Assembly: GCF_002514735.1 (NCBI RefSeq)
Contig: NZ_KZ300477.1
Span: 458,368 to 522,367 of the forward strand
Direction of reading: 5' to 3'
Origin: Sediminicola luteus
Lineage (GTDB): Bacteria; Bacteroidota; Bacteroidia; Flavobacteriales; Flavobacteriaceae
DNA length: 64,000 nucleotides
Under the pieces are notes generated by a model. That model searched no databases and was not told where the DNA came from. It saw only the letters and a list, made by a program, of their open reading frames with translations. Below, in pieces: positions 32,507 through 61,401 of this stretch (position 1 is its first letter; every line of letters starts with the position of its first letter). Made by a program: the position numbers and the translations under genes.

Positions 32507-35500
32507 TTAATATTTAATACTACCAACTTCAAGTTCATCTTCCTCTTTATCCAATCTTAATATTTTAATTTTTTTCTTTTCATTAGATTTTCCATAATCT
32601 GTAAAAATGGAAACCTTTAAAATTGTAGGTCCAGATATCTTTTGGATATTATCGGAATAGTAATCTGCAAGAATTCTATACTCTCCCTTATTAGCATTTT
32701 TCAGCATAAACTCTTCTGGCCCATATCCTTCGGTCATATCCTCCGAAATTCGACCACCAATCTTTGTTAAGTTGTTTTTATAATATGCTTTTTCTTTTGT
32801 AGGGTCAATAACCCAAAGATCAATATCGGTATCGTTATGGTTCCAGTCAATTACAATTCTTATATCAACAGGAATTTCTTTAAACTTATTTTTTATCTCC
32901 TTTCTAAGCTTTAGCCTTTTAGAATATTTGTTAACTAATCTTGATAATTCAATATAGGCGATTTGCTCAATTCCATTAAACCGCTCATCTTCGTCTTTAA
33001 CCAATAATTGGCCTTCATATAAAAGATACAAAAGATCGAAACTCTCTTTAATTTTGCCCAGTTGTTCATAAACTAATGCCAAATCCCTATACGATTGTGG
33101 TTCCTCAGGTCGCAGTTCCAATACTTTTTCATAAACAATCGATGCCAATTCATACTCTTCAAAGTATTCTAGTTTATAAGCTAAGGCCTTCAAAAGTTCA
33201 TGGTTATTCAATTCAACTTCCATTAAATTGGTTAGAATAGTAATAGCATAGTCAGTACTGCCCCTTTGATCAAAGAAATCAGATACATCCAAATAAAAAG
33301 AAGGGCTATTGGAATAATCGTTTCTTATATCTAAGTATTTTTTATAGGCCAATTCAATACTTTCTTGCTGTTCCAGAATTTGGATGTACGGTGTTTCTGG
33401 ATTCCAAGATTTTAATTCAATCTTATCAGAAATCCTTCTGTTTAATTCTTCAATTTTTTCTTGTTTAACTTCCGAACCATTTTTTGTCGTAATGATTACA
33501 ACCCCATTTGATGCTCTATTACCATAAAGCACAATTGCGTGCATAGCTTTTAATACTTGTATACCATTAATGTCCTCTGGTTTTAACTCCTGAATAGGAT
33601 TACCCATAACTGGAACTCCATCAACTACATAAAGTGGACCATTTTCCCCTGTAATTGAACTATTCCCACTTTGTTTAACCGCATTCTTAGAACTAATATC
33701 CCCAGAATTCTGGGTTATCTGAATACCTGCCACATTTCCCTGCAATGATTCTGAAACAACTGTGCTAATAGAATACCCAACAGCTTTTCTTTCTCTTTGG
33801 ATACCCATTGAAGTGACCACTACCTCTTCTAAAGCTTGAGAACTTTCTTCCAATACGATGGAAATTCTATTTGTTTCACTGATAACAAAACTAGCTGGCT
33901 TAAACCCAATGTATGAAAAGGTTAATTCATCTTCACTTTCAGCATTTATCAAAAAATTACCGTCAAAATCGGTTGTTGTACCATTGTCACTACCTTTTAC
34001 AATTACATTTACTCCAGGGAGCGGCCTACTGTCGGCATCTAAAACAGTTCCCGAAACTATTCCCCGTGTAGAATCGACCGTAACAGTATTCCTAGTCGAA
34101 ATCGTATTATTGGTCAACGGTCTTGTTTCCCCAGAAAGGTTACTATCATTTGGATTGTTAACGGATCTTGGTAAAGTGCTATGTACCGAACTATCTTTTT
34201 TGGGAGATTTCGTTTTCTTTATCGGATAATTAGTGTTATACCAATCCTGAACAACCCTATATTCATCTAATAAACTCTCCTTTCTAAATTTTAAGGCTTC
34301 ACTTTTTTCAGCCTCCTCTTCCTCTAAATTTCCAATTAAATCTTTGTATTCCCCCTTTAACTCATTTGGCGGTTCAATACGATAACGGACATAATCTTCT
34401 ATCCTATCTAATATCAACATAGAGGTGTAATCCGTAATCAAATGATATTCTTTTCCATGAGAGATTATGTGTTCCTTGTTCTCCTTTTTATCTAGATTTA
34501 AATAATTCAATTTTTGTTTTGCCCATAATCTTCTAACCAATTGATTATTCTGACTTTTTTGAATAGGCACCTTTACGCGCTCCGTAATTTTCCCTTGATA
34601 ACCGAATAACAACTCCAACTCAGTGTTCTTTCTAAATCGTCCGCTTACAGAAAAATTTTCATGAACGTTAGTCCTTGTTTTGGGGTATAACTCAAAGACT
34701 GCCTTGTTAGAAACAACTCCTAAATACTGAAACGTTTCACTTTTAAGTGCTTTTACAGCTTCTTTATAAGGCATATTAACCATATTCACATAGCTACCAC
34801 CCGAAGCTGTTGCAATGCTTTCTAACAACTCGTGATTTGCAGAAATACTTGAATTTATTGTATAAACCGCCTTTTTGTATATTTTGGGAAAATTTCCAAG
34901 ATTACTTAGTCCATCGGAAAACAATAAAATCTCATCTGATTTAGAATGCCTACCCAATACGTTAAAGGAGGTTCCGCCATCGTACGTAATCTTTTCAATG
35001 GTATTTTTAAGTTGTTCCCAATCACCGTTTTTTATTCGAACAATGGTTCTTTCGAGTATCGAATTACTGAAAGAAATGAACTCAATCTCAACATCTCTTA
35101 GATATTCCAAATAGGCCCCCAATACTTCTAACTCTGATTTTAACTTTCTGGATTTCTGAGAGTAAGAAGCATCCCATAATAAAGTAATTCTTTTGGGTTT
35201 TGGTTTTAGTCTTGACTTGGTTTTAATCTTGTCTGTAATATGGAAGTAATCCCTATAGGTCATCAAACTGGAAGAATTGTTGAAACTGGGGATTTCAATA
35301 ACTACTGGATTTTTTGGTTTATGGTTTACCAACTGTGTATCTGCCAGGAAAAAACCGTTTTTCTCTTTGAAAAAAAAGTTTTTATAAATCGAGTTTATTA
35401 CCTTGGGCATGTCCTGACTTTTGTAAACCTCTATTTTAATTGAAAAAAAATCCAATGAATCCTTTAGTCCTAAAGGCAGTTCATAAATATGATTTTGGTC

Positions 35501-35953
35501 AAAAGTCGCTAACTCTTGCTCAAAGCTTAAAACTATGCGTTTATACTTTTTGGGTAGTATAGGATACACTCTTGCTTTGTAGTTGTTCCCTTCGGTCTTT
35601 TCCAAAAAGGCAGGATCAATATTTTGTCTCACAGTACTTTCAAAAGCTACACGTGCCAACTCTTTTTCTACCACCACCGCATTTCTTAGGGTTCCATTTA
35701 CTTCCATTGCAAAATGAGATACTGCTTGCCCTTCGCCAAGAGGAAATTCTAATTCCCCTTCAAGGGTACGATCCAGCCCATTGTAAAACTGCATATCATA
35801 AGTAGTTCGAGCAAAATTCCCTACAATACTGACATCGATTTCCAATTTGGCTAGTTTCAGGGAAATTGAATCCTTTGTTTTAAGTTGAATAGGCTCCTGT
35901 GCTAAAACTTTAACAACAATAAAAAAGAGGAAAATGAAACTTTTCTTAGGCAT
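32507..35953 (-). CDS. VIT-VWA protein with carboxypeptidase-like, TonB-plug, TPR and DUF2135-like domains
   Basis: A 1148-residue exported protein. A signal peptide (FIFLFFIVVKVLAQ) precedes a VIT domain (about 20-160; TTYDMQFYNGLDRTLEGELE). A VWA domain (about 250-430) has the MIDAS-like DASYS. A carboxypeptidase-regulatory-like domain (about 625-700; VSGTVLDADSRPLPGVNVIV) follows, then a SusC-style plug (LYVVDGVPVMGNPI, LYGNRASNGVVIITTKNG) with no barrel after it. TPR-like repeats come next, and a C-terminal DUF2135-like domain has DWNHNDTDIDLWVIDP. The gene is visibly AT-richer than its left neighbours, so it may be acquired. Likely an outer-membrane or surface scaffold; the partner is unknown. 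Confidence 0.75.
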   Translation of the reverse strand: MPKKSFIFLFFIVVKVLAQEPIQLKTKDSISLKLAKLEIDVSIVGNFARTTYDMQFYNGLDRTLEGELEFPLGEGQAVSHFAMEVNGTLRNAVVVEKELARVAFESTVRQNIDPAFLEKTEGNNYKARVYPILPKKYKRIVLSFEQELATFDQNHIYELPLGLKDSLDFFSIKIEVYKSQDMPKVINSIYKNFFFKEKNGFFLADTQLVNHKPKNPVVIEIPSFNNSSSLMTYRDYFHITDKIKTKSRLKPKPKRITLLWDASYSQKSRKLKSELEVLGAYLEYLRDVEIEFISFSNSILERTIVRIKNGDWEQLKNTIEKITYDGGTSFNVLGRHSKSDEILLFSDGLSNLGNFPKIYKKAVYTINSSISANHELLESIATASGGSYVNMVNMPYKEAVKALKSETFQYLGVVSNKAVFELYPKTRTNVHENFSVSGRFRKNTELELLFGYQGKITERVKVPIQKSQNNQLVRRLWAKQKLNYLNLDKKENKEHIISHGKEYHLITDYTSMLILDRIEDYVRYRIEPPNELKGEYKDLIGNLEEEEAEKSEALKFRKESLLDEYRVVQDWYNTNYPIKKTKSPKKDSSVHSTLPRSVNNPNDSNLSGETRPLTNNTISTRNTVTVDSTRGIVSGTVLDADSRPLPGVNVIVKGSDNGTTTDFDGNFLINAESEDELTFSYIGFKPASFVISETNRISIVLEESSQALEEVVVTSMGIQRERKAVGYSISTVVSESLQGNVAGIQITQNSGDISSKNAVKQSGNSSITGENGPLYVVDGVPVMGNPIQELKPEDINGIQVLKAMHAIVLYGNRASNGVVIITTKNGSEVKQEKIEELNRRISDKIELKSWNPETPYIQILEQQESIELAYKKYLDIRNDYSNSPSFYLDVSDFFDQRGSTDYAITILTNLMEVELNNHELLKALAYKLEYFEEYELASIVYEKVLELRPEEPQSYRDLALVYEQLGKIKESFDLLYLLYEGQLLVKDEDERFNGIEQIAYIELSRLVNKYSKRLKLRKEIKNKFKEIPVDIRIVIDWNHNDTDIDLWVIDPTKEKAYYKNNLTKIGGRISEDMTEGYGPEEFMLKNANKGEYRILADYYSDNIQKISGPTILKVSIFTDYGKSNEKKKIKILRLDKEEDELEVGSIKY

Positions 35954-36033: not shown

Positions 36034-36041
36034 CATCTTTG
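36034..36041 (+). promoter_or_regulatory. possible -7 box of short unit 1
   Basis: CATCTTTG at 36034-36041 differs from TAnnTTTG at the first base only; no good TTG lies 19-21 bases upstream. It is the weakest of four similar boxes in this locus. Confidence 0.35.
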
Positions 36042-36074
36042 CCCCTATCATAGAAAACCAAAAACGAAATACCC

Positions 36075-36140
36075 ATGTTATATAGTTCAATTCACATATC
36101 ACAGATTTTAGCCTTAGGCAGGTTTCATTTGGATGGGTAA
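36075..36140 (+). CDS. short leader-like ORF of unit 1 (21 residues)
   Basis: The ORF MLYSSIHISQILALGRFHLDG starts at 36075 and stops at 36140, between a promoter-like box and an intrinsic terminator 25 bases after the stop codon. No homologue is recognised. Position and size suggest a leader peptide or a small RNA with a chance ORF. Confidence 0.35.
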   Translation: MLYSSIHISQILALGRFHLDG

Positions 36141-36164
36141 TTACGATAAAGCGTAAAGCGAACT

Positions 36165-36195
36165 AAAGCGTCCAAGAAATTGGGCGCTTTTTTTT
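36165..36195 (+). terminator. intrinsic terminator of unit 1
   Basis: AAAGCGTCC at 36165-36173 pairs with GGGCGCTTT at 36182-36190 with one wobble and is followed by a T-run. Nearly the same hairpin recurs at 40543. Confidence 0.85.
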
Positions 36196-36368
36196 CGCCC
36201 AGTAAGCCATACCGCAAAACCCTACAAAAAATGCCTATTGAAGTCTAAGCAAATAAACCTCAGTCCATTAGCAATAATGGTGGTTCTCCGTAAGCTAACG
36301 GACAGGGACTCTATTGTCTTGTTTTTAGCGTAATGAATTGATTTACAGCGTTTTATTTTTGTTTTTCA

Positions 36369-36400
36369 TTTGCATACTTCCAAAAAGGGTCATAGGTTTG
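36369..36400 (+). promoter_or_regulatory. promoter of short unit 2
   Basis: TTTG at 36369-36372 and TAGGTTTG at 36393-36400 are separated by 20 bases, a full Bacteroidota promoter. The box is followed by CACC, as in unit 4. Confidence 0.7.
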
Positions 36401-36437
36401 CACCGCAATTAAGCACCACAAAAAAGTATTAAAGCGA

Positions 36438-36524
36438 ATGTTTGTATTACCATCACAATCAAAGAAGTATACCAGACTAGGTCTTGTTATACCTAAGCTT
36501 CGCGACTACTTCCATACTTTATAA
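36438..36524 (+). CDS. short leader-like ORF of unit 2 (28 residues)
   Basis: ATG at 36438, preceded by AAAGCGA, opens a 28-codon frame beginning MFVLPSQSKKYTRLGLVIPK and ending at 36524. A terminator starts 22 bases after the stop. It is unlike any known protein; it may be a translated leader that decides read-through into the PcfJ-like gene at 36768. Confidence 0.4.
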   Translation: MFVLPSQSKKYTRLGLVIPKLRDYFHTL

Positions 36525-36545
36525 TCCATTTCTTAAGTATAGGGG

Positions 36546-36577
36546 AGTCCGAAGCCAAAACGTTTCGGGCTTTTTTT
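36546..36577 (+). terminator. intrinsic terminator of unit 2
   Basis: AGTCCGAA at 36546-36553 pairs with TTCGGGCT at 36564-36571 with one wobble, followed by seven T. A close relative closes unit 4 at 41109. The next 190 bases up to the PcfJ-like gene show nothing recognisable. Confidence 0.85.
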
Positions 36578-36767
36578 ATCTAAAGTCCCACCGACAAGCA
36601 TCATACTATTAAAATGATGCTAGGCGGGAAGCCCAATTTCCAAGTTATCGAAACCCGAATTTCCGGTTCCTGATCCAAGGGGTCGGCCTAATCGAATATG
36701 CCAAAATCTATGCGGATACAATCCCATGGCTTTACATAAATCAGCAACCGTGTAAAGAGCCGAAATC

Positions 36768-38108
36768 ATGAAAACTTTAAGAACCCAAATAAAGACTAGG
36801 GAGAGTGCCTTTGTACAACTCGTTGAAGAACTCTATGCGGCAGACCATGCCGCGGTTAGGGCTTCGGGTACCATGACCGCTATGCTCCAAGAGTTCTTTT
36901 CAAAAACCAGCAAAACAAGTAACCCTTACCAAAGGGAGGTGTTTAGACAGCTTTTGCTGCATACCTACAACCAAAAATGTTATGCCCTTTTGCGTCAATA
37001 CCTATATGTAAACGTATTGTATAACATCAGTTGTTTGGGGAACCATTTGGTTCGCGAAGTGGTGGAATGGAAAAATACCGAGATCGATGCCGAACATCAG
37101 GTACGTGCCCTGATCCGACACTGTTTTGCCACCTATGAGGTGCCCTTGTTTATGGAACGCGCCTTTTTTTCGGAGAATAGGATCCATATGCTGTGGTACG
37201 TACAATTGGGTAGGGGAAATAGCGTAAAAGGTCTTTCCCAATTTCCGGTGGAATTTACCCATAAAATGGCCCACATTTTTCGAAACGCTCCCGAAGGTTT
37301 GGGGGTTGGTCGAGCCATTCGGTTTGCCCAAGCCATGGGGTATGGCGCCTCTAAAGACACGGCCTTAGCCCTTTGCAATACCTTTTTGGGACAGTTTTTG
37401 GATGAAAATGAAGCTTTTTGGAGCGAGGTAATCCTTTTTTTTGCCAAAGAAGACAAACTAATCGCCCGCGAAATGTGCCTTATGCTTGACTATTTGGCCG
37501 AACACCCAACAACACGGCTAAAAGGCACTACATACCGTAGGCTGCATAAGCAAAGTAGGGCCTGGAAAAAGCAACGCAATCTCTTGGCCCAAAGTGGTGC
37601 GGACTGGCAGGGATCCGGTATTAGACCGCTGCAACACGAAACGGAGCTTGATGGTAGTCCCGTAACCTACCAGACCCTAGAGCTACAGCATGTTGCGGCC
37701 CTTTATGAAGAAGGGGATATTATGCAGCACTGTGTTGCCGAATACGAAGCGGAATGCAAAAGCGGTGAAAGCGCCATTTTCTCTTTGCAAAGGAAAGGCC
37801 AAAATGGAGAAACCAAGCGATTGGCCACGGTTGAAGTAGCCTTGCCCCAAAAGGAGCTGGTTCAGATCCAGGGTAGGTTTAACACCGACCCTACGGCCGA
37901 GACCCTAGCAATGATCGATCAATGGATGGTTCAATCGCAGCTACAATGGCCCGAAGACAGGACGATGGATGCGGCCTTAACCCACCCTTTGGAAGAAGGG
38001 GGCATAGAGAGGCCAATGGACACAAACGGAACCGGAGAAGCCTTGATCGCTATAATCAAGGTAGTTTTTTGGATCCTTTACTTCCTTTTCAGGATGTCAC
38101 AAACATAA
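36768..38108 (+). CDS. PcfJ-like domain protein
   Basis: A 446-residue protein. The first 270 residues are helical (VQLVEELYAADHAAVRASG, QREVFRQLLLHTYNQKCYALL). The PcfJ-like domain lies around residues 290-385: LQHVAALYEEGDIMQHCVAEYEAECKSGESAIFSL, RLATVEVAL, LVQIQGRFNTDPTAETLAMIDQWM, with the conserved C..Y..C and Q.xGRFN features. A hydrophobic C-terminal segment (ALIAIIKVVFWILYFLF) may attach it to the membrane. PcfJ is named from conjugative plasmid pCF10; its biochemical role is not established. It is followed after 49 bases by rtcB, which points to a role in RNA repair or sensing. Confidence 0.75.
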   Translation: MKTLRTQIKTRESAFVQLVEELYAADHAAVRASGTMTAMLQEFFSKTSKTSNPYQREVFRQLLLHTYNQKCYALLRQYLYVNVLYNISCLGNHLVREVVEWKNTEIDAEHQVRALIRHCFATYEVPLFMERAFFSENRIHMLWYVQLGRGNSVKGLSQFPVEFTHKMAHIFRNAPEGLGVGRAIRFAQAMGYGASKDTALALCNTFLGQFLDENEAFWSEVILFFAKEDKLIAREMCLMLDYLAEHPTTRLKGTTYRRLHKQSRAWKKQRNLLAQSGADWQGSGIRPLQHETELDGSPVTYQTLELQHVAALYEEGDIMQHCVAEYEAECKSGESAIFSLQRKGQNGETKRLATVEVALPQKELVQIQGRFNTDPTAETLAMIDQWMVQSQLQWPEDRTMDAALTHPLEEGGIERPMDTNGTGEALIAIIKVVFWILYFLFRMSQT

Positions 38109-38157
38109 AAACGGAGATGGGTCATGAAAATGATCCATCTCCTAAAAATGAAATCAA

Positions 38158-39549
38158 ATGGGAAAAAAATTAAGTGGAAAAGACCTGATAAAATTGGGCT
38201 TTCCTAAAAACAATAGTATCAACATAACCTTAGGTCAGATCAACCGCTATCATAAAAGAAAAAAGAAAAATCAAATACTAGCGGAAGCCAAGGAAGTTTT
38301 ACTGAACCCAGCCCAATACAAAGAAGATGGTGTTTGGGGTAAAATTGCCGAAAGTTTACTTGATCCGGTGGTGGTAAAAAAGCAACAGCTAAACCCGGTT
38401 CGGGCACCTTTTCACATTTTTGGTGAAAACGAGATCGAGCCCCAAGCCATATACCAATTGTACGATGCACTGAAACTACCCGTTTCGGTTGCAGGGGCCT
38501 TAATGCCCGATGCACATAGTGGCTATGGCTTACCCATTGGAGGTGTTTTGGCCACCAAAAATGCCGTAATACCTTATGGGGTTGGGGTAGACATTGGGTG
38601 TCGGATGTGTTTAACGGTATATCCTATCCCAATCTCCTACCTGGAAGGTAAAAAACAGCAATGGTCCAACTTTTTGGCCGAACATACCAAATTCGGAATG
38701 CGGGAAACCCATGCCATAAAACATGACCACCCCATTTTCGAAAGGGAAGAATTCAAAACCATTCCTTTGGTAAAACGGCTAAAAGACAAAGCCTATAAAC
38801 AGTTGGGCACCTCGGGTGGTGGCAACCATTTCGTAGAATTCGGTAAGGTGAGTATTACCGACACCCAAAACGAATGGGGCCTAGACCCGGGAGACTATGT
38901 AGGTATATTATCGCATAGTGGATCTCGGGGCTTAGGGGCACAAATTGCCAAACACTATACCTATTTGGCAAGCAAGCAATGTCCGCTACCCCAAAAAGTA
39001 CAGCATTTGGCTTGGTTAGATCTAAACACCCACGATGGCCAAGAATATTGGTTAGCCATGAATTTAGCCGGCGATTATGCCAAAGCCTGTCATGACGATA
39101 TACATGCCCGTTTGTCAAAACTAATCGGTTCTAAGCCACTGGTTACCATAGAAAACCATCACAATTTTGCTTGGAAACAAGAAGTGAACGGGCAAGAATG
39201 TATCGTGCACCGAAAAGGGGCTACCCCTGCTGCCAAAGGAGAATTGGGTATAATTCCGGGTTCCATGACGGCCCCGGGTTATATCGTTCACGGATTGGGT
39301 AATGAACGCTCGCTAAACTCGGCCTCACACGGGGCCGGCCGACTATTGTCGCGTAGAAAGTGTAAGGAAACCTTAACCCATAGTGCCTTTAAAAAACAAC
39401 TCGAGGTGCATGGGGTAAGCTTAATCGGTGGCGGTATTGACGAGGCACCAATGGCCTATAAGGATATTACCAAAGTAATGGCCAACCAACAGAATCTAGT
39501 GGAGGTCATTGGCAGCTTTACACCCAAATTAGTCCGTATGGACCATTAA
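38158..39549 (+). CDS. rtcB: RNA ligase RtcB (RtcB2-type)
   Basis: Seals RNA 2',3'-cyclic phosphate or 3'-phosphate ends to 5'-OH ends with GTP and Mn. The 463-residue product contains MPDAHSGYGLPIGGV, VGVDIGCRM, GTSGGGNHFVEFG, SHSGSRGLG, ENHHNFAWKQE and VHRKGATPA, the usual metal and guanylate motifs, and ends SFTPKLVRMDH. The N-terminus (LTLGQINRYHKRKKK-like charged stretch near residue 25) is the form found beside prfH. The known RtcB2-PrfH pair repairs ribosomes cut in the 16S decoding centre. The spacing to prfH is 55 bases. Confidence 0.93.
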   Translation: MGKKLSGKDLIKLGFPKNNSINITLGQINRYHKRKKKNQILAEAKEVLLNPAQYKEDGVWGKIAESLLDPVVVKKQQLNPVRAPFHIFGENEIEPQAIYQLYDALKLPVSVAGALMPDAHSGYGLPIGGVLATKNAVIPYGVGVDIGCRMCLTVYPIPISYLEGKKQQWSNFLAEHTKFGMRETHAIKHDHPIFEREEFKTIPLVKRLKDKAYKQLGTSGGGNHFVEFGKVSITDTQNEWGLDPGDYVGILSHSGSRGLGAQIAKHYTYLASKQCPLPQKVQHLAWLDLNTHDGQEYWLAMNLAGDYAKACHDDIHARLSKLIGSKPLVTIENHHNFAWKQEVNGQECIVHRKGATPAAKGELGIIPGSMTAPGYIVHGLGNERSLNSASHGAGRLLSRRKCKETLTHSAFKKQLEVHGVSLIGGGIDEAPMAYKDITKVMANQQNLVEVIGSFTPKLVRMDH

Positions 39550-39604
39550 AACAGATGCCGGATGATGTTGATAGCAGCTTATCCGGCATCTTTATTTAAG
39601 AACA

Positions 39605-40309
39605 ATGAAAACAAAAATCATACAAATTACCGCAGGCCGAGGCCCTGAGGAATGTTGTTGGGTAGTGGCCCAAGTCGTAAAACATTTTAATCAAAATCTA
39701 AAGGATGCCGGTATCACTGCACATCTTTTACATAGGGTTTCCGGCAATGAAAATGGAGCCTTACGATCGGTTACCCTTCAATTACAGGGGAATGAATTAG
39801 ATACTTTTTTGAGTACATGGTTAGGTACCATACAATGGATAGGAAAATCGAACTATAGAAAATTCCACAAACGAAAGAATTGGTTTATTGGCATTTTCGA
39901 AATCGAAAGTAATCCGCCAATCCGATTAACCTTGGATCAAATAAGGTATCAAGCCATACGGAGTTCCGGTCCGGGTGGGCAACATGCCAACAAGGTAAGT
40001 TCGGCGGTGCGTGCCACCCACCTCAAAACCGGGCAAAGCGTTTTGGTATCGGACACCAGGTCACAACATCAAAACAAAAAAATAGCCCTGGAACGATTAC
40101 AAAACAAGCTCAACCTGTACCAAAACGAAATGTTGAAAAGCCAGGCTCAAAATCAATGGGAGAACCATCTCGATCTAGCGCGGGGGAATCCGATCCGGGT
40201 TTTTACCGGAACCGATTTTAAGGCCATTAAAAAGAAAAAAAGCTATAAAGCAAAACGACGGCAACTTAAACATGAATTGCGTAGATCAAATGATCGGTAT
40301 TCCGAATAA
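39605..40309 (+). CDS. prfH: peptide chain release factor-like PrfH
   Basis: The 234-residue protein has the GGQ motif in RSSGPGGQHANKVSSAVRATH near residue 120-140 and a basic C-terminus (KAIKKKKSYKAKRRQLKHELRRS). The N-terminus (ITAGRGPEECCWVVAQVVKHF) is specific to PrfH and unlike RF1, RF2 or ArfB. PrfH releases the nascent peptide from ribosomes with a damaged decoding centre so that RtcB2 can religate the 16S rRNA; this is known for the paired system in other bacteria. Here it directly follows rtcB. Confidence 0.92.
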   Translation: MKTKIIQITAGRGPEECCWVVAQVVKHFNQNLKDAGITAHLLHRVSGNENGALRSVTLQLQGNELDTFLSTWLGTIQWIGKSNYRKFHKRKNWFIGIFEIESNPPIRLTLDQIRYQAIRSSGPGGQHANKVSSAVRATHLKTGQSVLVSDTRSQHQNKKIALERLQNKLNLYQNEMLKSQAQNQWENHLDLARGNPIRVFTGTDFKAIKKKKSYKAKRRQLKHELRRSNDRYSE

Positions 40310-40350
40310 CACGCATTAAAGGGGCCACTAACATAATAAATGACCCACAA

Positions 40351-40383
40351 TTTGGAAAAACCCTGAAAATCAACCCATATTTG
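40351..40383 (+). promoter_or_regulatory. promoter of short unit 3
   Basis: TTTG at 40351-40354 and CATATTTG at 40376-40383, separated by 21 bases, fit the Bacteroidota promoter with one mismatch. GCACC follows, as in unit 4. Confidence 0.55.
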
Positions 40384-40391
40384 CACCTGAA

Positions 40392-40517
40392 ATGAAAAAT
40401 ACTAGAGTACATAACAAACCTGGAGCACTGTTTAGTCAGTGTGACTATTGCCATTTAAAGGAATTATTATGGCGGAAGGGACGTAATGTGTCTAGTGTAA
40501 ATGGGTTTATCTCTTGA
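40392..40517 (+). CDS. short ORF of unit 3 (41 residues, CxxC)
   Basis: ATG at 40392 opens MKNTRVHNKPGALFSQCDYC and continues with HLKELLWRKGRN to a stop at 40517. The CDYCH group could bind zinc. It starts only 8 bases after the -7 box, so translation would need a nearly leaderless mRNA; a non-coding RNA is equally possible. Confidence 0.35.
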   Translation: MKNTRVHNKPGALFSQCDYCHLKELLWRKGRNVSSVNGFIS

Positions 40518-40542
40518 CTTAAAACCATCTTGACACAACATA

Positions 40543-40574
40543 AAAGCGTCCAATGAGAATTGGGCGCTTTTTTT
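40543..40574 (+). terminator. intrinsic terminator of unit 3
   Basis: AAAGCGTCC at 40543-40551 and GGGCGCTTT at 40562-40570 with a T-run; both stem arms are identical to those of unit 1 at 36165. About 275 bases without a recognisable feature lead to the unit 4 promoter. Confidence 0.85.
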
Positions 40575-40850
40575 ATTGGCTCCGCCAAAAGGGTTTATTG
40601 CCTTAAGGCATACCTCGTGTCCTGATTTCGATAGCTAATGGAACTATCGGGATAGTACCGGGGTAGTTTACTGAAAATTCTAAATATATGAGTGAAATAT
40701 AAAAATACATACTAAGGATAGTTGATACCGGAAACCATTGTACATCAATCGATTGCAAACGGGTCGGGAATCTGCATAAAGCGGACCGCCCCACTATGGT
40801 CTAAATTCAACTTAAATATCTGATTTTCAGTATTTTATATTCGTTTTTTC

Positions 40851-40880
40851 TTGTATAATTAAAAATAGGTTTCATATTTG
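40851..40880 (+). promoter_or_regulatory. promoter of short unit 4
   Basis: TTG at 40851-40853 and CATATTTG at 40873-40880 are exactly 19 bases apart. The transcript would begin near the CACC after the box. Confidence 0.65.
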
Positions 40881-41009
40881 CACCGTCGAAAACGAACAGA
40901 AGTTATCCCTATGATAACTTCATTCAAGTAAAGACAAAAACGAAAACCAATCCCTATGCTGGCCTGCCTATCGGCCACTTAGGAATATTGAAAAATTAAA
41001 AACGAAGCG

Positions 41010-41087
41010 ATGCTATTATTCAGTAGTTATTTTAAAAGCCAATTGATCGAAAGCGGGTCAATAGCTATGCTTCGGTTCTTTCCATAA
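41010..41087 (+). CDS. short leader-like ORF of unit 4 (25 residues)
   Basis: ATG at 41010, preceded by GAAGCG as in unit 2, opens MLLFSSYFKSQLIESGSIAM and stops at 41087, 22 bases before a terminator. The ORF resembles that of unit 1 in its opening (ML, then SS). Its position before the TPR gene suggests a leader peptide. Confidence 0.4.
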   Translation: MLLFSSYFKSQLIESGSIAMLRFFP

Positions 41088-41108
41088 AGGGCTACACCTT
41101 TACTAAAG

Positions 41109-41145
41109 ATCCGAAGCACCAAAACCAAGTGTTTCGGATTTTTTT
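41109..41145 (+). terminator. intrinsic terminator of unit 4
   Basis: ATCCGAAGCAC at 41109-41119 pairs with GTGTTTCGGAT at 41129-41139, one mismatch, followed by a T-run. It resembles the terminator of unit 2 in the CCGAA/TTCGG core. Confidence 0.85.
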
Positions 41146-41229
41146 GTTTCCCCTAGGGGTTCTCCTTAAAAAATCCAACAAAACCACATGCTGGGCCATT
41201 TGCCTGTTGGCATGTACAAGAAGAATGTA

Positions 41230-41741
41230 ATGGAAAGAACAAATTATAATAGGTATGTATTCAAGGCTTTGGAAGCCTATCCGTATGAATTGGCAGAAAC
41301 CATGGAAGCCTTGAACTATGCCCTTTCTTACGATACCGACAACGTAAAGGCGCTATGTTTCATGGGCAAGGTTTATGCAGAGCAGTTAGGCGATTACGAA
41401 ATGGCCAAAAGCTATTTTGAACAAGCTTTGGAAAACGGACTTGAGATGCCCTATATCTATCCGGACTATATCGCTACCCTGATATTGAACGAAGATTTGA
41501 TAGAGGCCCAAAAAGTATTGGAATACGCCCGAAAGGTAAAAGGTAGCAATAAGGCGGTATTGTACAATTTGCAGAGTTGGCTATTCGAGCAATGGCGCCA
41601 ATACAAAATGGCGATAAAGGCCATGGAGCAGGTAAAAGTGCACGCTACAATGCCGATTACCAAGACTATGCCGAGCGGGAAATTGTCCGTATTAAGAAGA
41701 AGTTGCCCAAAAAGGGCAAGAAGGGGAAAAACCGCCCCTAA
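41230..41741 (+). pseudogene. TPR protein gene with apparent -1 frameshift
   Basis: From the ATG at 41230 the frame gives TPR-type helices (YDTDNVKALCFMGKVYAEQLGDYEMAKSYFEQAL, then YIATLILNEDLIEAQKVLEYARKV). Near 41630 the coding signal moves to the -1 frame, which reads GKSARYNADYQDYAEREIV and ends with a basic tail KKKLPKKGKKGK at the stop 41739-41741. A one-base deletion, a sequencing error or programmed frameshifting could explain this; no classical slippery heptamer is seen. The unshifted frame runs on into the tRNA-like genes and is not credible. It sits between the leader-like units and the tRNA-like cluster. Confidence 0.65.
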
Positions 41742-41751
41742 TTGGGGCGGT
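41731..41751 (+). repeat. perfect hairpin at the end of the TPR gene
   Basis: ACCGCCCC at 41731-41738 pairs perfectly with GGGGCGGT at 41744-41751; the loop holds the stop codon. There is no T-run, so it may be a processing or stability element between the mRNA and the tRNA-like RNA starting six bases later. Confidence 0.6.
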
Positions 41752-41756
41752 ATTAT

Positions 41757-41842
41757 GGGTGTGCACCGAAGTTGGAGGGTCGGGGCGGACTGTAAATCCG
41801 TTGTCTTAGACCGAGTAGGTTCGAATCTTACCACTCCCACCA
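41757..41842 (+). tRNA. tRNA-Tyr-like RNA, anticodon GTA
   Basis: The acceptor GGGTGTG (41757-41763) pairs with CACTCCC (41832-41838) with one mismatch at the fourth pair; A and an encoded CCA follow. A four-pair D stem (CCGA/TCGG), an anticodon loop CTGTAAA with GTA on a GCGGA/TCCGT stem, a long variable arm (GTC TTA GAC) and a T-arm with loop TTCGAAT complete a class II tRNA. It lacks the usual AGCNNAGUGG-like D arm, so charging by TyrRS is not assured. It belongs to the RNA-repair locus rather than a usual tRNA operon. Confidence 0.7.
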
Positions 41843-41856
41843 TAACATTTTACCCA

Positions 41857-41943
41857 GGAGGGTAGGCAAATAGTGGTTGGTTGCGCCCGCCTGCTAAGCG
41901 GGTCTATCGAAAGGTAGTGAAGGTTCGATTCCTTTACCCTCCG
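41857..41943 (+). tRNA. tRNA-Ser-like RNA, anticodon GCT
   Basis: The acceptor GGAGGGT (41857-41863) pairs perfectly with ACCCTCC (41936-41942), with discriminator G at 41943 and no full encoded CCA. The anticodon loop CTGCTAA on a CCCGC/GCGGG stem gives GCT, and the variable arm CTATC GAAA GGTAG is long, as in tRNA-Ser. The T loop is TTCGATT. Overall it looks more canonical than its neighbours. It lies 14 bases after the Tyr-like RNA, and both probably form one transcript. Confidence 0.75.
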
Positions 41944-42037
41944 CATATTAAAATATCAAGCTGGTCTTGTTGGGTGTTTCGGTATGGCACCATTGTATGG
42001 TTTCCTGCCCTAGGGTATCGGATTTCTATATACAACT
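41944..42037 (+). other. 94-base spacer between tRNA-Ser-like RNA and terminator
   Basis: No ORF or tRNA fold is seen. Short stems such as CCATTGTATGG are present. It is transcribed if the next terminator ends the tRNA-like transcript. Confidence 0.3.
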
Positions 42038-42061
42038 AGACTTGAAGGTTTAGGTCTTTTT
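42038..42061 (+). terminator. possible intrinsic terminator after the tRNA-like pair
   Basis: AGACTTGA at 42038-42045 pairs with TTAGGTCT at 42050-42057 through two wobbles; four T follow. Confidence 0.6.
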
Positions 42062-42136
42062 CCAAAAAAAGGTCGAGGATCTATGGGTCGTGGGTTTCCT
42101 GCCCGTCCGGCAGGCGGGGAATCCCACTCTTGCTTT

Positions 42137-42201
42137 GGCAAGGTAGCTTAGTGGTTAGAGCAATAGATGTAGTTGTTACGGGTTCGAGTCCCGTTCCCAG
42201 T
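42137..42201 (+). ncRNA. non-canonical tRNA-like RNA with a reduced anticodon arm
   Basis: A typical D arm (GCTTAGTGGTTAGAGC) and a perfect T arm (ACGGG, TTCGAGT, CCCGT at 42178-42194) are present, but the region between them is only about 15 bases and gives no good anticodon stem. The two ends do not form a normal acceptor stem. The 3' end TCCCAG instead can pair with CTGGGA at the start of the next tRNA-like RNA. It cannot be a standard translating tRNA. It may be a Y-RNA-like or decoy RNA. Confidence 0.5.
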
Positions 42202-42203
42202 TC

Positions 42204-42271
42204 TGGGATAGCTCAATAGGTAGAGCACTACCCTTTTACGGTAGGATATGGACTTAAAATCCATTTTCCCA
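42204..42271 (+). ncRNA. tRNA-like RNA with a Lys-type anticodon arm and a second anticodon-like arm in place of the T arm
   Basis: TGGGATA (42204-42210) can pair with TTTCCCA (42265-42271) with one mismatch. The D arm AGCTCAATAGGTAGAGC is canonical. The anticodon arm CTACC/GGTAG with loop CTTTTAC shows TTT (Lys). Where the T arm should be is a perfect ATGGA/TCCAT stem with loop CTTAAAA, which looks like the anticodon arm of tRNA-Leu(TAA), and TTCRANN is missing. It therefore could not be used as a normal tRNA. Confidence 0.5.
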
Positions 42272-42649
42272 AGCCGACCATCTTGTAAACCTGGTCACCA
42301 ACGCCCCCAGGGGCAAAACATGATAAGAAACCGTAGTTCCATTTCGGTGGTTTTCTTCCAATCGCAGAAAACGACAGTCTTGAAACTACCTTGAAATATT
42401 GAACTTTTGATGTAACGGAGCATTTCGTGGCCCGTCATCCCTCCTTTTGGAAAACTGATCCATATGTTATCAGCGACCCTTGAGGAAGCATGGCTCAACA
42501 CGGATGCCAACTAGACGCAAAAACCTGTATTTCCGTATCGGATAGATGATATGCAACCACGGTTTCTTTTGTATGGAAAGTAATTAGATTAATGAATAAA
42601 GTGTAACCCGTTCGTCCGTAAAACAAAGGACGGACACAAATTTTATGTG
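42272..42649 (+). other. gene-free stretch before slipin
   Basis: No credible ORF. A hairpin GTCCGT/ACGGAC stands close to the slipin start. No clear TAnnTTTG box is seen. The sequence could hold further unrecognised RNA. Confidence 0.4.
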
Positions 42650-43750
42650 ATGAAAAGAGTACGGATCAACGCCGGAAAAGTAGGATTGGTCTTTAAAAAT
42701 GGTGATTACCGAAAGGTACTTACCCAAGGGAACCATTGGGTAGGTCTTGGCGCCATAGTCCATACCTACGATATGACCATATCCTTTACCCCTCCAATCG
42801 CCTTGGATATACTATTGGAGGATGAACGATTGTTTAATATGTTGCACCTTATTGAGGTAAAAGATGGCGAAATCTGTTTGGTCTCCACCAACGGAAAACT
42901 ACGTCATTTACTTACCGCTTCTAGATATGCCTTCTGGAAAGGTCTATTGGATTTCGATTTCGTAAAGCTTAATCTAAATGAGCTCGAAGTACCAAAGTCC
43001 ATCGATAAGGCGCTATTGGCACACGTTTCTTTGCGCCCTTACATACGTACTTTTGAGGTTGCCGCCTTTGAAAAAGGGGTACTCTTGGTAGATGATGTTT
43101 ATGTAAAAACACTTGATAGTGGTACCTACCATTTTTGGAAAAACAATACCACCATTAAAGTGCTCAAGGTAGACATGCGTCAACTACAATTGGAGATCTC
43201 GGGTCAGGAATTGTTGACCAAAGACAAGGCCGCTATCCGTATCAACTTCTATACACAGTATAAAGTAATTGATATAGAACGGGCCCTTTTGGACAACAAA
43301 GACTATGAAAAACAGTTGTACATCGCCATGCAATTGGTTTTGAGGGCCTATATTGGCACCTATACCCTAGATGAGCTTTTAGAGCGAAAGGAAAGCATTG
43401 CGGAAGCCGTTTTTTCAGATATCGAAACCACAGCAACCCAATTGGGAGTTAGGGTATTGAACTGTGGTATCCGAGATGTGATCCTAACTGGGGAAATGAA
43501 AGATATCATGAACCAGGTGTTGGTGGCCCAAAAACGGGCCCAGGCCAACATTATTACCCGTAGGGAAGAAACCGCCTCTACCCGAAGTTTGTTGAACACC
43601 GCCAAACTGATGGAAGAGAACGCCATGCTCTATACCCTAAAGGAGATGGAATACGTAGAAAAGATCGCCGATAAGATCGGTGAGATCTCCGTCTCCGGCA
43701 ACGGGGGTTTGGTAAAACAGCTAAAAGAAATTTTCGCTGTATCCAAATAG
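42650..43750 (+). CDS. slipin (SPFH/band 7) protein
   Basis: The 366-residue product starts at ATG 42650, a GTG three bases earlier being also possible. Residues about 110-300 form the SPFH/band-7 domain: RPYIRTFEVAAFEKGVLLVDDVYVKTL, LTKDKAAIRINFYTQYKVIDIERAL, LYIAMQLVLRAYIGTYTLDELLERKESI, VRVLNCGIRDVILTGEMKDIMNQVLVAQKRAQANIITRREE. The N-terminal 100 residues replace the usual membrane hairpin. SPFH proteins oligomerise into membrane rings. Slipins occur with RtcB-type RNA repair genes in several bacteria, which fits this locus, but their role is unknown. Confidence 0.82.
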   Translation: MKRVRINAGKVGLVFKNGDYRKVLTQGNHWVGLGAIVHTYDMTISFTPPIALDILLEDERLFNMLHLIEVKDGEICLVSTNGKLRHLLTASRYAFWKGLLDFDFVKLNLNELEVPKSIDKALLAHVSLRPYIRTFEVAAFEKGVLLVDDVYVKTLDSGTYHFWKNNTTIKVLKVDMRQLQLEISGQELLTKDKAAIRINFYTQYKVIDIERALLDNKDYEKQLYIAMQLVLRAYIGTYTLDELLERKESIAEAVFSDIETTATQLGVRVLNCGIRDVILTGEMKDIMNQVLVAQKRAQANIITRREETASTRSLLNTAKLMEENAMLYTLKEMEYVEKIADKIGEISVSGNGGLVKQLKEIFAVSK

Positions 43751-43771
43751 GGTATAATCCTGCTAGATGGG

Positions 43772-43820
43772 GGTCGGGACACTTACTTCTTAAGAAGTGA
43801 GGGTCTCGGCCTTTTTTTTT
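43772..43820 (+). terminator. intrinsic terminator after slipin
   Basis: A long stem (GGTCGGGAC and GTCTCGGCC outside, CTTACTTC and GAAGTGAG inside, TTAA loop) is followed by nine T at 43812-43820. Confidence 0.9.
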
Positions 43821-44220: not shown

Positions 44221-44433
44221 CTAAGGTAACCCCCTACCTTTGAAAATTTCCTTCAAGACCTCACATGGGTCTACACCAATGGCCAAGGAAATCAAATACA
44301 GCTCCTCCGCCCTCAAATGCGTCCTTGGATTGGCACTCAGTTGACTGATCCTGGATTTACTGATCCTGGTCCTTCTGGCCACCTCGGCCTTGTTTATGGA
44401 TCTCTTGGCAAGATACAATCCTAGTTCGGTCAT
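44221..44433 (-). CDS. XRE-family helix-turn-helix regulator
   Basis: From the ATG at 44433 the product has 70 residues: MTELGLYLAKRSINKAEVARRTRISKSRISQLSANPRTHLRAEELYLISLAIG, a Cro/CI-type helix-turn-helix with recognition helix around SKSRISQLS. It is short, with almost nothing besides the DNA-binding domain. It is divergent from the HEPN-like gene, and the shared 120-base gap holds a perfect inverted repeat, so it likely represses one or both genes. The longer start at 44484 would add an odd Tyr-rich leader. Confidence 0.8.
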   Translation of the reverse strand: MTELGLYLAKRSINKAEVARRTRISKSRISQLSANPRTHLRAEELYLISLAIGVDPCEVLKEIFKGRGLP

Positions 44434-44534
44434 TTTGAAAGTATAATATTTGTATACATAAATATAGTTTTTAAACACGTTCATGTTAATTATCTACACC
44501 AATCAGCTGATTTTGAATATTTTTTCTATACTTT

Positions 44535-44553
44535 TGTGTAGAATATCTACACA
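44535..44553. promoter_or_regulatory. perfect inverted repeat, likely operator of the XRE regulator
   Basis: TGTGTAGA at 44535-44542, three bases ATA, then TCTACACA at 44546-44553, ending one base before the HEPN-gene ATG. A further half site TATCTACAC occurs about 50 bases upstream. Confidence 0.65.
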
Positions 44554-44554
44554 T

Positions 44555-45787
44555 ATGAATAGGATCAATCACCATATGGGCTTTCCACTACCGGGTTATT
44601 ATAGGGCCCATGGTAACGCCGTCCACTGGGCCACACCATCCGAAATACAACAACTCACGGGACTACGAAGACTCGATAGGATATTCACAAGGACAGTCAC
44701 AATGAAAACAGGTACCCGAACGACCGAATTGCTCCTTATCATGGATACGGACATCAGGGACATTGCCGAACGGGTAATACCACAAATACGGGATATCCTC
44801 AATGATAATGGTCAGGTATCCTTTAATGTCCTTTCCTCTTCCTATGTAAAGGAACAACTAAGGGAGGGCAATCTATACCTTTTACATAATTGCCTACCAG
44901 AACAACTATTCTATCGTAATGAAAGTAATGATCACCGTTGGGAATATCCCACTATAGGGAAAGCCATCCTTTCAAAGGAGGTCGTCAAAACGTTCGAGCA
45001 TGAAATGAACAAAATAACCGCTTACAAAAAAGGCGCGGTCTTTTTCCAGAGGAACCAGTTATTGGATCAAGCCGTCTTTATGGCCCATCAATCCTTCGAA
45101 CAGGGCTACCGCTTATTGGAACATCTGGTTTTTGGGAAGATCAAAGTCTGCCACAGCATCGAAAAACACCAAGCCTACGTCCAACGGAAGATGCCTAACC
45201 TAAAAGGGACCTTCGACATCAAGGACAAATGGGAATACGCCCTTTTAAGGACACTTGACAGCTCATACTCGGACTCCCGGTATTCCAAAGGCCTTAGGAC
45301 CAACCTAGGGGAACTGGATACGATACTCCAAAAACTAAGGGTGTTCATAGAAGAGATCAAAGGAAACTTCGACAGTGCCTTGACGGCATTTATGGGCAAT
45401 GAAAGGGGGCAGGGAAAAAGTAACACAAAAACCAACATGGATATGGAGACGAAAAACAAAAACGAGGACACAGATCGGTTATTGGAACAAATCCAAAAAA
45501 TGACCCAAGATGACTTTGTACTTTTAAAACCTATTGGAGGTAAGGTACGGGGGTCTTATCTGAACGAGGCCTATGTATATGGCTATAAGCAATTGTTCGA
45601 TATCCTTCGTTCCACTTTGAACGTCTGCATCCTGGCATTGGACGAACAGATAGATCTAACCTTGGCCATAAAGAGAAAGGAATTCGACGTTCAGAAAGTC
45701 CTTGAATTCGCCAAGAACCTGATCCCAATGGAAGAGGGGGACTATCTGGACAAGATGCGGGAACTCCTACCGGACACAAAAGAATAG
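44555..45787 (+). CDS. HEPN-like domain protein
   Basis: From the ATG at 44555 the product has 410 residues. FMAHQSFEQGYRLLEHLVFGKIKVCHSIEKH near residues 170-200 matches the helix pattern of HEPN proteins that occur fused to nucleotidyltransferase-like domains. The N-terminal region (TELLLIMDTDIRDIAERVIPQI, VKEQLREGNLYLLHNC) fits the nucleotidyltransferase-like half, but no GSxxxxD catalytic motif is visible and the HEPN RxxxxH motif is not exact. The C-terminal 130 residues follow a low-complexity Lys/Asn/Thr linker. HEPN proteins are often RNases in toxin or defence systems; activity here is unproven. A small gene follows after 44 bases. Confidence 0.55.
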   Translation: MNRINHHMGFPLPGYYRAHGNAVHWATPSEIQQLTGLRRLDRIFTRTVTMKTGTRTTELLLIMDTDIRDIAERVIPQIRDILNDNGQVSFNVLSSSYVKEQLREGNLYLLHNCLPEQLFYRNESNDHRWEYPTIGKAILSKEVVKTFEHEMNKITAYKKGAVFFQRNQLLDQAVFMAHQSFEQGYRLLEHLVFGKIKVCHSIEKHQAYVQRKMPNLKGTFDIKDKWEYALLRTLDSSYSDSRYSKGLRTNLGELDTILQKLRVFIEEIKGNFDSALTAFMGNERGQGKSNTKTNMDMETKNKNEDTDRLLEQIQKMTQDDFVLLKPIGGKVRGSYLNEAYVYGYKQLFDILRSTLNVCILALDEQIDLTLAIKRKEFDVQKVLEFAKNLIPMEEGDYLDKMRELLPDTKE

Positions 45788-61172: not shown

Positions 61173-61179
61173 TAGTTAT

Positions 61180-61357
61180 AAATACATGCGGGAAAGGTAG
61201 TGCCTTAAAAGCACTTTAATAGGGAATCTGGTGTAAGTCCGGAACTGTCGCGCAACTGTAAGTAATGTCAAGGAATACGTCACTGTTTTCCACTGTTCGT
61301 TCCAATATCGAATGGGAAGGAAGACGTATCCCATATTACAAGTCAGGAGACCTGCCT
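61180..61357 (+). promoter_or_regulatory. cobalamin riboswitch
   Basis: The sequence holds the conserved core blocks: AGGGAATCTGGTG at 61230-61242, AAGTCCGGAACTGTCGCGC around 61245-61263, CAACTGTAA, and the B12 box AGTCAGGAGACCTGCC at 61341-61356. Order and spacing are those of the adenosylcobalamin class. A T-run follows the B12 box at once. The next genes (61570, 62906) encode lipoproteins and not BtuB, Cob or B12-independent enzymes. Confidence 0.92.
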
Positions 61358-61401
61358 TTTTTGTCTGACCGAGCTTTCGCGGAATAAAGCAATGGTTTAG
61401 T

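Follow-up and report, generated by a model that had tools for sequence, protein, structure and literature searches.

The described system nearest to the locus studied here, which spans positions 36034..43820 (~7.8 kb) of a 64,000-nucleotide stretch of the Sediminicola luteus genome (Flavobacteriaceae; contig NZ_KZ300477.1; hereafter the window), is the trn/TrcR regulon of Anabaena. In the part of its published account available to us (PMC10272220), the Anabaena trn operon is an additional array of 26 tRNA genes, silent until induced by translational stress; TrcR also represses rtcB, and one of the genes raised in a trcR mutant encodes a slipin. The S. luteus locus likewise brings together a tRNA array and genes for the RNA ligase RtcB and a slipin. 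However, whereas the Anabaena genes are described as scattered and controlled by a ribbon-helix-helix repressor (PMC10272220), those examined here occupy a single locus, are associated with leader open reading frames (ORFs), and include an RNA that resembles YrlA. Relative to Anabaena-like systems, the additional elements are a predicted stall sensor and a structured RNA.

Other described systems resemble the locus in part. As presented in the available sections of its description (PMC7790460), the Salmonella rsr-yrlBA-rtcBA operon encodes RtcB beside a YrlA-type, tRNA-mimicking RNA and answers broken tRNAs; tRNA halves are sensed by RtcR, which contains a CARF domain, and the Ro60 homologue Rsr is present. 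Unlike that operon, the locus here lies in a genome from which Ro60 (TROVE) is absent, has a different predicted sensor, and carries its tRNA mimic as part of a longer RNA that adjoins a tRNA array. The E. coli RtcB2-PrfH operon, which protects from cleavage of 16S rRNA by colicin E3, shares adjacent rtcB2 and prfH genes, but the sections of the account available to us mention no attenuator, PcfJ, tetratricopeptide repeat (TPR) protein, array, noncoding RNA (ncRNA) or slipin (PMC9223846). Finally, phage tRNA arrays with anticodon-loop mutations have been proposed, in the excerpts available, to escape anticodon nucleases (PMC10264068). The tRNA sets described below also have altered anticodon loops, but they are carried by bacterial genomes, where repair genes and leader ORFs adjoin them.

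We consider it fairly probable that, at this locus, stalled ribosomes turn on both the repair of 16S rRNA and the supply of replacement tRNAs, by way of leader attenuators that precede both gene sets. An earlier, sequence-only reading of the window had described six genes or gene groups running in one direction over 7.8 kb, with two sets of short terminated units. Every one of these components lies on the + strand at the position claimed, in the order PcfJ-like protein, RtcB, PrfH, TPR protein, tRNA-like cluster and slipin, with units A1 and B1 5′ of the PcfJ-like gene and units A2 and B2 5′ of the TPR gene. The same reading joined the six into one response. Instead, the neighborhood consists of two conserved modules, (PcfJ-like)-RtcB2-PrfH and TPR-tRNA array-ncRNA-slipin, rather than one six-part operon.

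The evidence for two modules comes from two samples of relatives, 149 genomes of the family (G labels) and slipin loci from named genomes together with further stretches from relatives (L labels). Scanning the named genomes with a slipin alignment confirmed at least 550 relatives, of which the best 80 were fetched to give, with the window, 81 loci. The best 80 come from Maribacter, Zobellia, Aquimarina, Winogradskyella, Tenacibaculum, Kordia and other genera; a small number of them lie outside the family. A TPR gene accompanies the slipin at 55 of the 81 loci, PrfH at 27, RtcB2 at 21 and any RtcB at 41, while PcfJ is found at only two (the window and L130); as 11 of the loci have <5 kb of upstream sequence, these partner counts are lower bounds. 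The array holds at least one tRNA at 66 loci, at least five at 42 and at least ten at 30, likewise as lower bounds. The order TPR-array-ncRNA-slipin is kept across many genera and, where RtcB2 is missing, RtcB1 often lies beside the slipin or TPR gene. Among 20 stretches from relatives (18 of 20 kb, one of 14.9 kb and one of 8.5 kb), gene orders include RtcB-PrfH-TPR-array-slipin (L068 and L069) and TPR-array-slipin without RtcB2 (L081-L085). Within the family sample, RtcB relatives of at least 52% identity occur in 15 of the 149 genomes (one copy has stop codons) and slipin orthologs of at least 48% identity in 14, with S. luteus counted in both. The sequence-only reading was to be given up if other genomes lacked a conserved neighborhood; a search for one found it conserved. 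A gene family with a WYL-domain representative lies on the opposite strand near 24 of the 81 loci.

Leader units precede both modules. We defined a unit as a Bacteroidetes-type -7 motif (consensus TAnnTTTG) followed by an ORF, of 21-41 codons in the window, and an intrinsic terminator. On the + strand of the window, unit A1 (36034..36197) has its -7 motif at 36034, a 21-codon leader ORF at 36075-36140 and a terminator at 36166-36197. Unit B1 (36393..36580; -7 motif at 36393) has a 28-codon leader at 36438-36524 that ends in KLRDYFHTL and a terminator at 36545-36580, and is the predicted attenuator of PcfJ-RtcB-PrfH. Unit A2 (40376..40577; -7 motif at 40376) has a 41-codon leader at 40392-40517 and a terminator at 40544-40577, and unit B2 (40873..41148; -7 motif at 40873), the predicted attenuator of TPR-tRNA-ncRNA-slipin, has a 25-codon leader at 41010-41087 that ends in MLRFFP and a terminator at 41108-41148. 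Such units are commoner than chance: across the 81 loci, a promoter-like motif and leader ORF accompany 88 of 141 strong terminators located within 1 kb upstream of PcfJ, RtcB2, TPR or array; of the remaining strong terminators in these loci, both strands included, 33 of 314 are so accompanied (Fisher p 1e-29). Scanning the 81 loci and 16 stretches yielded 116 leader units, of which 111 were kept; of the 62 loci over which these are spread, 52 belong to the set of 81. Window B2 falls outside this set, as its leader begins >110 nt from the -7 motif and fails the distance rule.

The terminator of the B units is rare. Its pattern occurs at 20 places in the 149 genomes (a reversed control pattern occurs at none), and 17 of these precede TPR, RtcB2 or PcfJ with a leader ORF, among them TPR-RtcB1 units in G044, G006 and G019 and a lone TPR gene in G018; the other three lie beside unrelated genes. 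The S. luteus genome (4.56 Mb; record completeness 99.9%) has exactly two copies, B1 and B2, both at this locus. That the same rare terminator stands on both halves argues against the idea that they adjoin by chance in this genome and that only the TPR-array-ncRNA-slipin half is a system. Although many loci have that half without RtcB2 (e.g., L081-L085), as chance adjacency would predict, RtcB2 lies within the fetched flank of 21 of the 81 slipin loci and RtcB1 often takes its place beside slipin or TPR where RtcB2 is missing. We regard chance adjacency as quite unlikely.

Left unexplained by the sequence-only reading, the terminated units look like stall-sensing attenuators. In classical attenuators of amino-acid operons, a leader ORF is followed by an antiterminator that overlaps the leader end and by an intrinsic terminator. 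In the units described here, the leader ORF ends shortly 5′ of an intrinsic terminator and, in B1, B2 and the class B units of relatives, the codons that close the leader, often LRDYF or LRFF, are able to pair with the 5′ arm of the terminator, GCTTCGG with CCGAAGC; for window A1 and A2, no such pairing that excludes the terminator is predicted. Leader and arm have changed together in L124 (GTTTCG with CGAAAC, with F for L) and in L071 and L138 (ACTTCG with CGAAGT). We folded each unit with the leader masked to just past the stop codon, as by a ribosome at the stop, or with the ribosome held early, using codon-shuffled leaders as control. The terminator probability of B2 fell from 0.965 with the ribosome at the stop to 0.012 with the ribosome held early, and that of B1 from 0.98 to 0.30 (0.94 to 0.37 in a separate run with its own stem limits). 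Over the 111 units, the terminator probability was 0.95 at the stop and 0.76 held early, compared with 0.93 held early with shuffled leader codons, and 70 of the 111 units fell below their own codon shuffles (Wilcoxon p 1.3e-8). For these three states, class B (n = 42) gave 0.95, 0.65 and 0.93, and class A (n = 59) gave 0.94, 0.82 and 0.93. B1 and B2 are thus predicted, from folding, to be classical ribosome-mediated attenuators.

If these are attenuators, what do they sense? One precedent would make them ordinary amino-acid attenuators triggered by amino-acid starvation rather than RNA damage, since the architecture is the same and a sub-threshold match to Phe_leader (26.6 bits, E 0.41) lies over unit A1. 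However, no single amino acid is concentrated in the leaders, which contain a mean of 15.85 different amino acids compared with 14.4 expected at the same length and composition (111 leaders, with an effective number of about 51; mean z about 1). The A2 leader contains all 20 within 41 residues, counting the start Met. Moreover, the genes 3′ of the B terminators are those for RNA repair, TPR protein and tRNA and not for biosynthesis, a further difference from amino-acid operons, and we therefore think it improbable that starvation is the trigger. The enrichment of each amino acid in leaders over nucleotide-shuffled leaders tracks the frequency of its isotype in 42 arrays (Spearman 0.675, p 0.001), in which Ala never occurs, Thr occurs in 2 and Gly in 3. 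We infer that the leaders sense failing elongation in general and are tuned to whichever tRNAs are at risk.

The tRNA arrays of relatives consist largely of tRNAs that look intact. They range from 0 to 18 tRNAs and are often eroded, yet of 509 array tRNAs identified by ARAGORN, 452 have all 7 acceptor pairs, while the T-loop motif is present in 98% and the D-loop GG in 99%. Some kinds differ from housekeeping tRNAs at nucleotide 37 of the anticodon loop. In a comparison with 85 distinct housekeeping tRNAs from three genomes (S. luteus, G102 and G144, the latter two of which also have tRNAs outside the array), nucleotide 37 differs in nine isoacceptors, in 256 of 283 array tRNAs: Asp (41/42), Glu (34/36), Gln (37/37), His (23/25), Arg(ACG) (26/29), Leu(UAG) (31/35), Pro (17/17), Phe (32/37) and Leu(UAA) (15/25). 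Of the remaining array tRNAs for which the set includes a housekeeping counterpart, 2 of 213 differ. U33 is conserved, differing in 2 of 496. It may be inferred that the array tRNAs are nuclease-resistant replacements, protected through their altered anticodon loops.

In S. luteus itself, the tRNA-like cluster of the sequence-only reading survives in part: tRNA-Tyr(GTA) (41757..41842, +) and tRNA-Ser(GCT) (41857..41944, +) are the remnant of an array, whereas the weak matches at 42137 and 42204 belong to a larger RNA and are not tRNAs. ARAGORN finds 34 housekeeping tRNAs elsewhere in the genome compared with these two in the array. The poor scores at the locus, where the four tRNA matches (29.6-45 bits) are the four lowest of 38 in the genome, would suit the view that the tRNAs and the YrlA-like modules described below are decoys or sensors for anticodon nucleases rather than a working reserve. 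So would the fact that the YrlA-like mimics are real, and that YrlA was considered a possible competitive inhibitor of a nuclease by Hughes et al., in the sections of that account available to us. However, the array tRNAs of relatives look intact, such that a reserve fits better than a decoy, and the isotypes retained follow the amino acids of the leaders. While we find this view somewhat unlikely overall, and do not favor the earlier suggestion that the tRNAs serve as decoys alone, the decoy idea may still hold for the YrlA-like modules. In L068, tRNA bodies in an array next to RtcB (L068:14847-15052 and L068:14260-14390) appear by eye to have long inserts replacing the anticodon arm; these could represent decay, or split tRNAs joined by ligation.

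Another explanation is that the array is a decaying phage tRNA insertion beside an unrelated repair operon, with position 37 reflecting foreign ancestry. Its variable size and frequent erosion are as expected of such an insertion, array tRNAs are on average 54-67% identical to the housekeeping copies of the S. luteus genome, and phage tRNAs also carry anticodon-loop mutations, according to the part of the account available (PMC10264068). Set against this, the TPR-array-ncRNA-slipin order is common to many genera, the rare B terminators are concentrated here and the tRNAs look intact, making a stray insertion unlikely.

The second module also contains a large structured RNA. From the end of the array to the slipin gene runs a conserved RNA, represented by 78 sequences of 574-1182 nt. 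Its 5′ domain (model R1; 41945..42052, + in the window) shows covariation: of 28 predicted pairs in 64 sequences, 13 have pair-keeping changes on both sides. Next come two YrlA-like modules on the + strand, the first at 42082..42169 (a weak YrlA match of 22.4 bits, E 0.38, which our pairing rule missed) and the second at 42170..42272 (44 bits, E 2.1e-7 at 42170-42230), and then the 3′ part (42273..42649, +), which reaches the start of slipin. The weak Rfam tRNA matches at 42137-42272 fall inside this RNA. In the second module, the T-arm and acceptor 3′ strand precede the acceptor 5′ strand, the D-arm and an anticodon arm that, by eye, is Lys(UUU)-like, such that the module resembles a circularly permuted tRNA. 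By the pairing rule, at least one such module is present in 76 of the 78 RNAs and two or more in 29. When the strands were defined without reference to pairing, 6.28 of 7 acceptor pairs formed (90 modules from 63 RNAs), compared with 3.44 (standard deviation 0.15) when partners were shuffled and 3.07 of 7 in the ordinary, unpermuted strand order (27 cases).

The sequence-only reading had noted that tRNA- or Y-like RNAs occur near RtcB. An Rfam match to YrlA (RF02553) at E 2.1e-7 bears this out, but the best match in the window, at 44 bits, does not reach the gathering cut-off of 69 bits, and no YrlA at cut-off was found in 14 of the stretches searched from relatives. Because of this shortfall, and because its Ro60 partner is missing, we do not class the ncRNA as a Y RNA. 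Ro60 occurs in 1 of the 149 family genomes (G079, 81% complete), directly downstream of slipin, and follows slipin at 3 of the 81 loci (L143, L148 and L150, two Kordia and one metagenome-assembled genome); the L150 protein is the G079 protein. A YrlA-resembling RNA seems to have mostly lost Ro60. Model R1 was found in 14 of the 149 family genomes, comprising all 13 whose slipin ortholog is at least 64% identical plus G036, and was not found in G033, whose slipin is 48% identical; in a sample of 396 genomes of the class it occurs in five, all within this family. In the literature searched, we found no description of the large RNA or of the predicted sensor. In G036, which has no close slipin ortholog, RtcB1 is immediately preceded by the 5′ domain (G036:C4:164016-164124). 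Flavo-1 RNAs (RF01705) lie among or beside the genes of several loci (L077:9145-9229, L079:8466-8536, L071:10545-10628, L082:10535-10607 and L086:9330-9401).

How might these parts work together? A ribosome that reaches the leader stop codon would, on the folding predictions, mask the pairing between leader and arm and allow the terminator to form, while a ribosome held early would leave the leader end free, such that the terminator is lost and RNA polymerase reads on into the genes. As the leaders use many different codons, the ribosome could be held, and the genes turned on, whenever one of many tRNAs runs short or the decoding center is damaged. By analogy with the published RtcB2-PrfH work, PrfH would free and RtcB2 would reseal cleaved 16S rRNA. 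The array, fuller in relatives, would supply tRNAs whose altered nucleotide 37 resists the nuclease that destroyed the housekeeping copies. The YrlA-like RNA might serve as tRNA-shaped bait or as a scaffold, placed at the membrane by slipin. Labor would thus be divided between RtcB2-PrfH for the ribosome and the array for tRNAs, with one kind of stall switch for both. With the array decayed to two tRNAs in S. luteus, what remains there is RtcB-PrfH and the ncRNA-slipin part. A more elaborate form of this proposal, which we hold tentatively and rate a little short of even, is that the leaders form a test tape for the whole genetic code: they sample most amino acids, and any stall calls up ribosome resealing, nuclease-proof tRNAs with position 37 swapped, and a permuted-mimic RNA that works with the membrane slipin, mostly without Ro60.

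Several observations weigh against stall-triggered repair and replacement. In the available part of its account, E. coli RtcB2-PrfH gave no protection from the tRNA-cutting colicins E5 and D (PMC9223846), and for this reason the two halves of the locus may answer different attacks. Under the rule used, 29 of the 81 loci have no leader unit, in part through contig ends. The B leaders of L135, L072 and L163 are unmatched to a changed arm, or can form a five-base pairing only. Almost no switch is predicted for window A1 (0.93 to 0.91) and none for A2 (0.94 to 0.94), class C (n = 10) has no overall predicted switch (0.94, 0.91 and 0.94 at the stop, held early and held early with shuffled codons), 41 of the 111 units are not below their own codon shuffles, and the drop is 0.2 or less in 83 of the 111. 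The correlation between leaders and arrays weakens when proteome composition is the reference (0.45, p 0.045). ARAGORN, which was used to find the array tRNAs, itself selects tRNA-shaped sequences. Array positions 32 and 38 vary too (240 and 197 of 496), and the change at position 37, instead of having been selected, may have entered by a single inheritance event from a tRNA lineage of foreign or phage origin. In the window, the array is eroded, its two intact tRNAs (Tyr and Ser) belong to isoacceptors that are unswitched at position 37, and the TPR gene has a broken frame.

The protein-coding genes of the locus, all on the + strand, have the following features. The PcfJ-like protein (36768..38108; Pfam PcfJ, 49.5 bits) has 134 relatives by protein search, and the named sources among the 120 listed are Flavobacteriaceae or Bacteroidota. 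Its gene lies directly 5′ of RtcB2 in G068, G077, G096 and L130, despite its rarity at slipin loci. The structure model (predicted local distance difference test score 89.6; predicted template modeling score 0.67) has a helical N-terminal part, an alpha/beta domain (the C-terminal domain) with weak GNAT likeness in model comparison, and a C-terminal helix. In the model, this last helix (422-445) may be a membrane anchor, in which case the protein may link repair with the membrane, a role that slipin would share. RtcB (38158..39549; 277.6 bits) is of the RtcB2 type, and the genome has no second RtcB match. PrfH, a release-factor homologue (39605..40309; RF-1 domain, 79.9 bits), retains the GGQ motif, read in translation as SGPGGQHANK. 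The rtcB gene is directly followed by prfH in the window and in relatives L068, L069, L071 and L074-L076, and the two are farther apart in L072 and L073; no PrfH match was found in stretches L070, L077, L079 and L080. The TPR protein gene (about 41230..41741) is interrupted near 41650, with its Lys-rich tail (41640-41741) in another frame, reflecting decay or an assembly error. The slipin (SPFH/Band_7; 42650..43750) is followed by a terminator (43772..43820, +).

Beyond the locus, a 1148-amino-acid protein with a VIT domain, a carboxypeptidase-regulatory-like domain and DUF2135 is encoded upstream on the - strand (32510-35953). Downstream, a 1540-amino-acid ORF on the + strand (47179-51801) reads by eye as Cas9, and between it and slipin (44224-45787) lie a divergent Cro/C1-type helix-turn-helix gene and an ORF that matches HEPN weakly (E 0.05). 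A cobalamin riboswitch is located at 61178-61373 (101 bits).

If stall-triggered control of this locus is correct, these bacteria would possess a sensor of failing translation as such, whether through any missing tRNA or a broken decoding center, wired to both repair and replacement. The arrays would be a chromosomal counterpart to the phage tRNA arrays proposed to evade anticodon nucleases, and the structured RNA would allow tRNA mimicry to be studied without Ro60. Such control would also account for the association of tRNA arrays, RtcB, slipins and Y-like RNAs in the Flavobacteriaceae.

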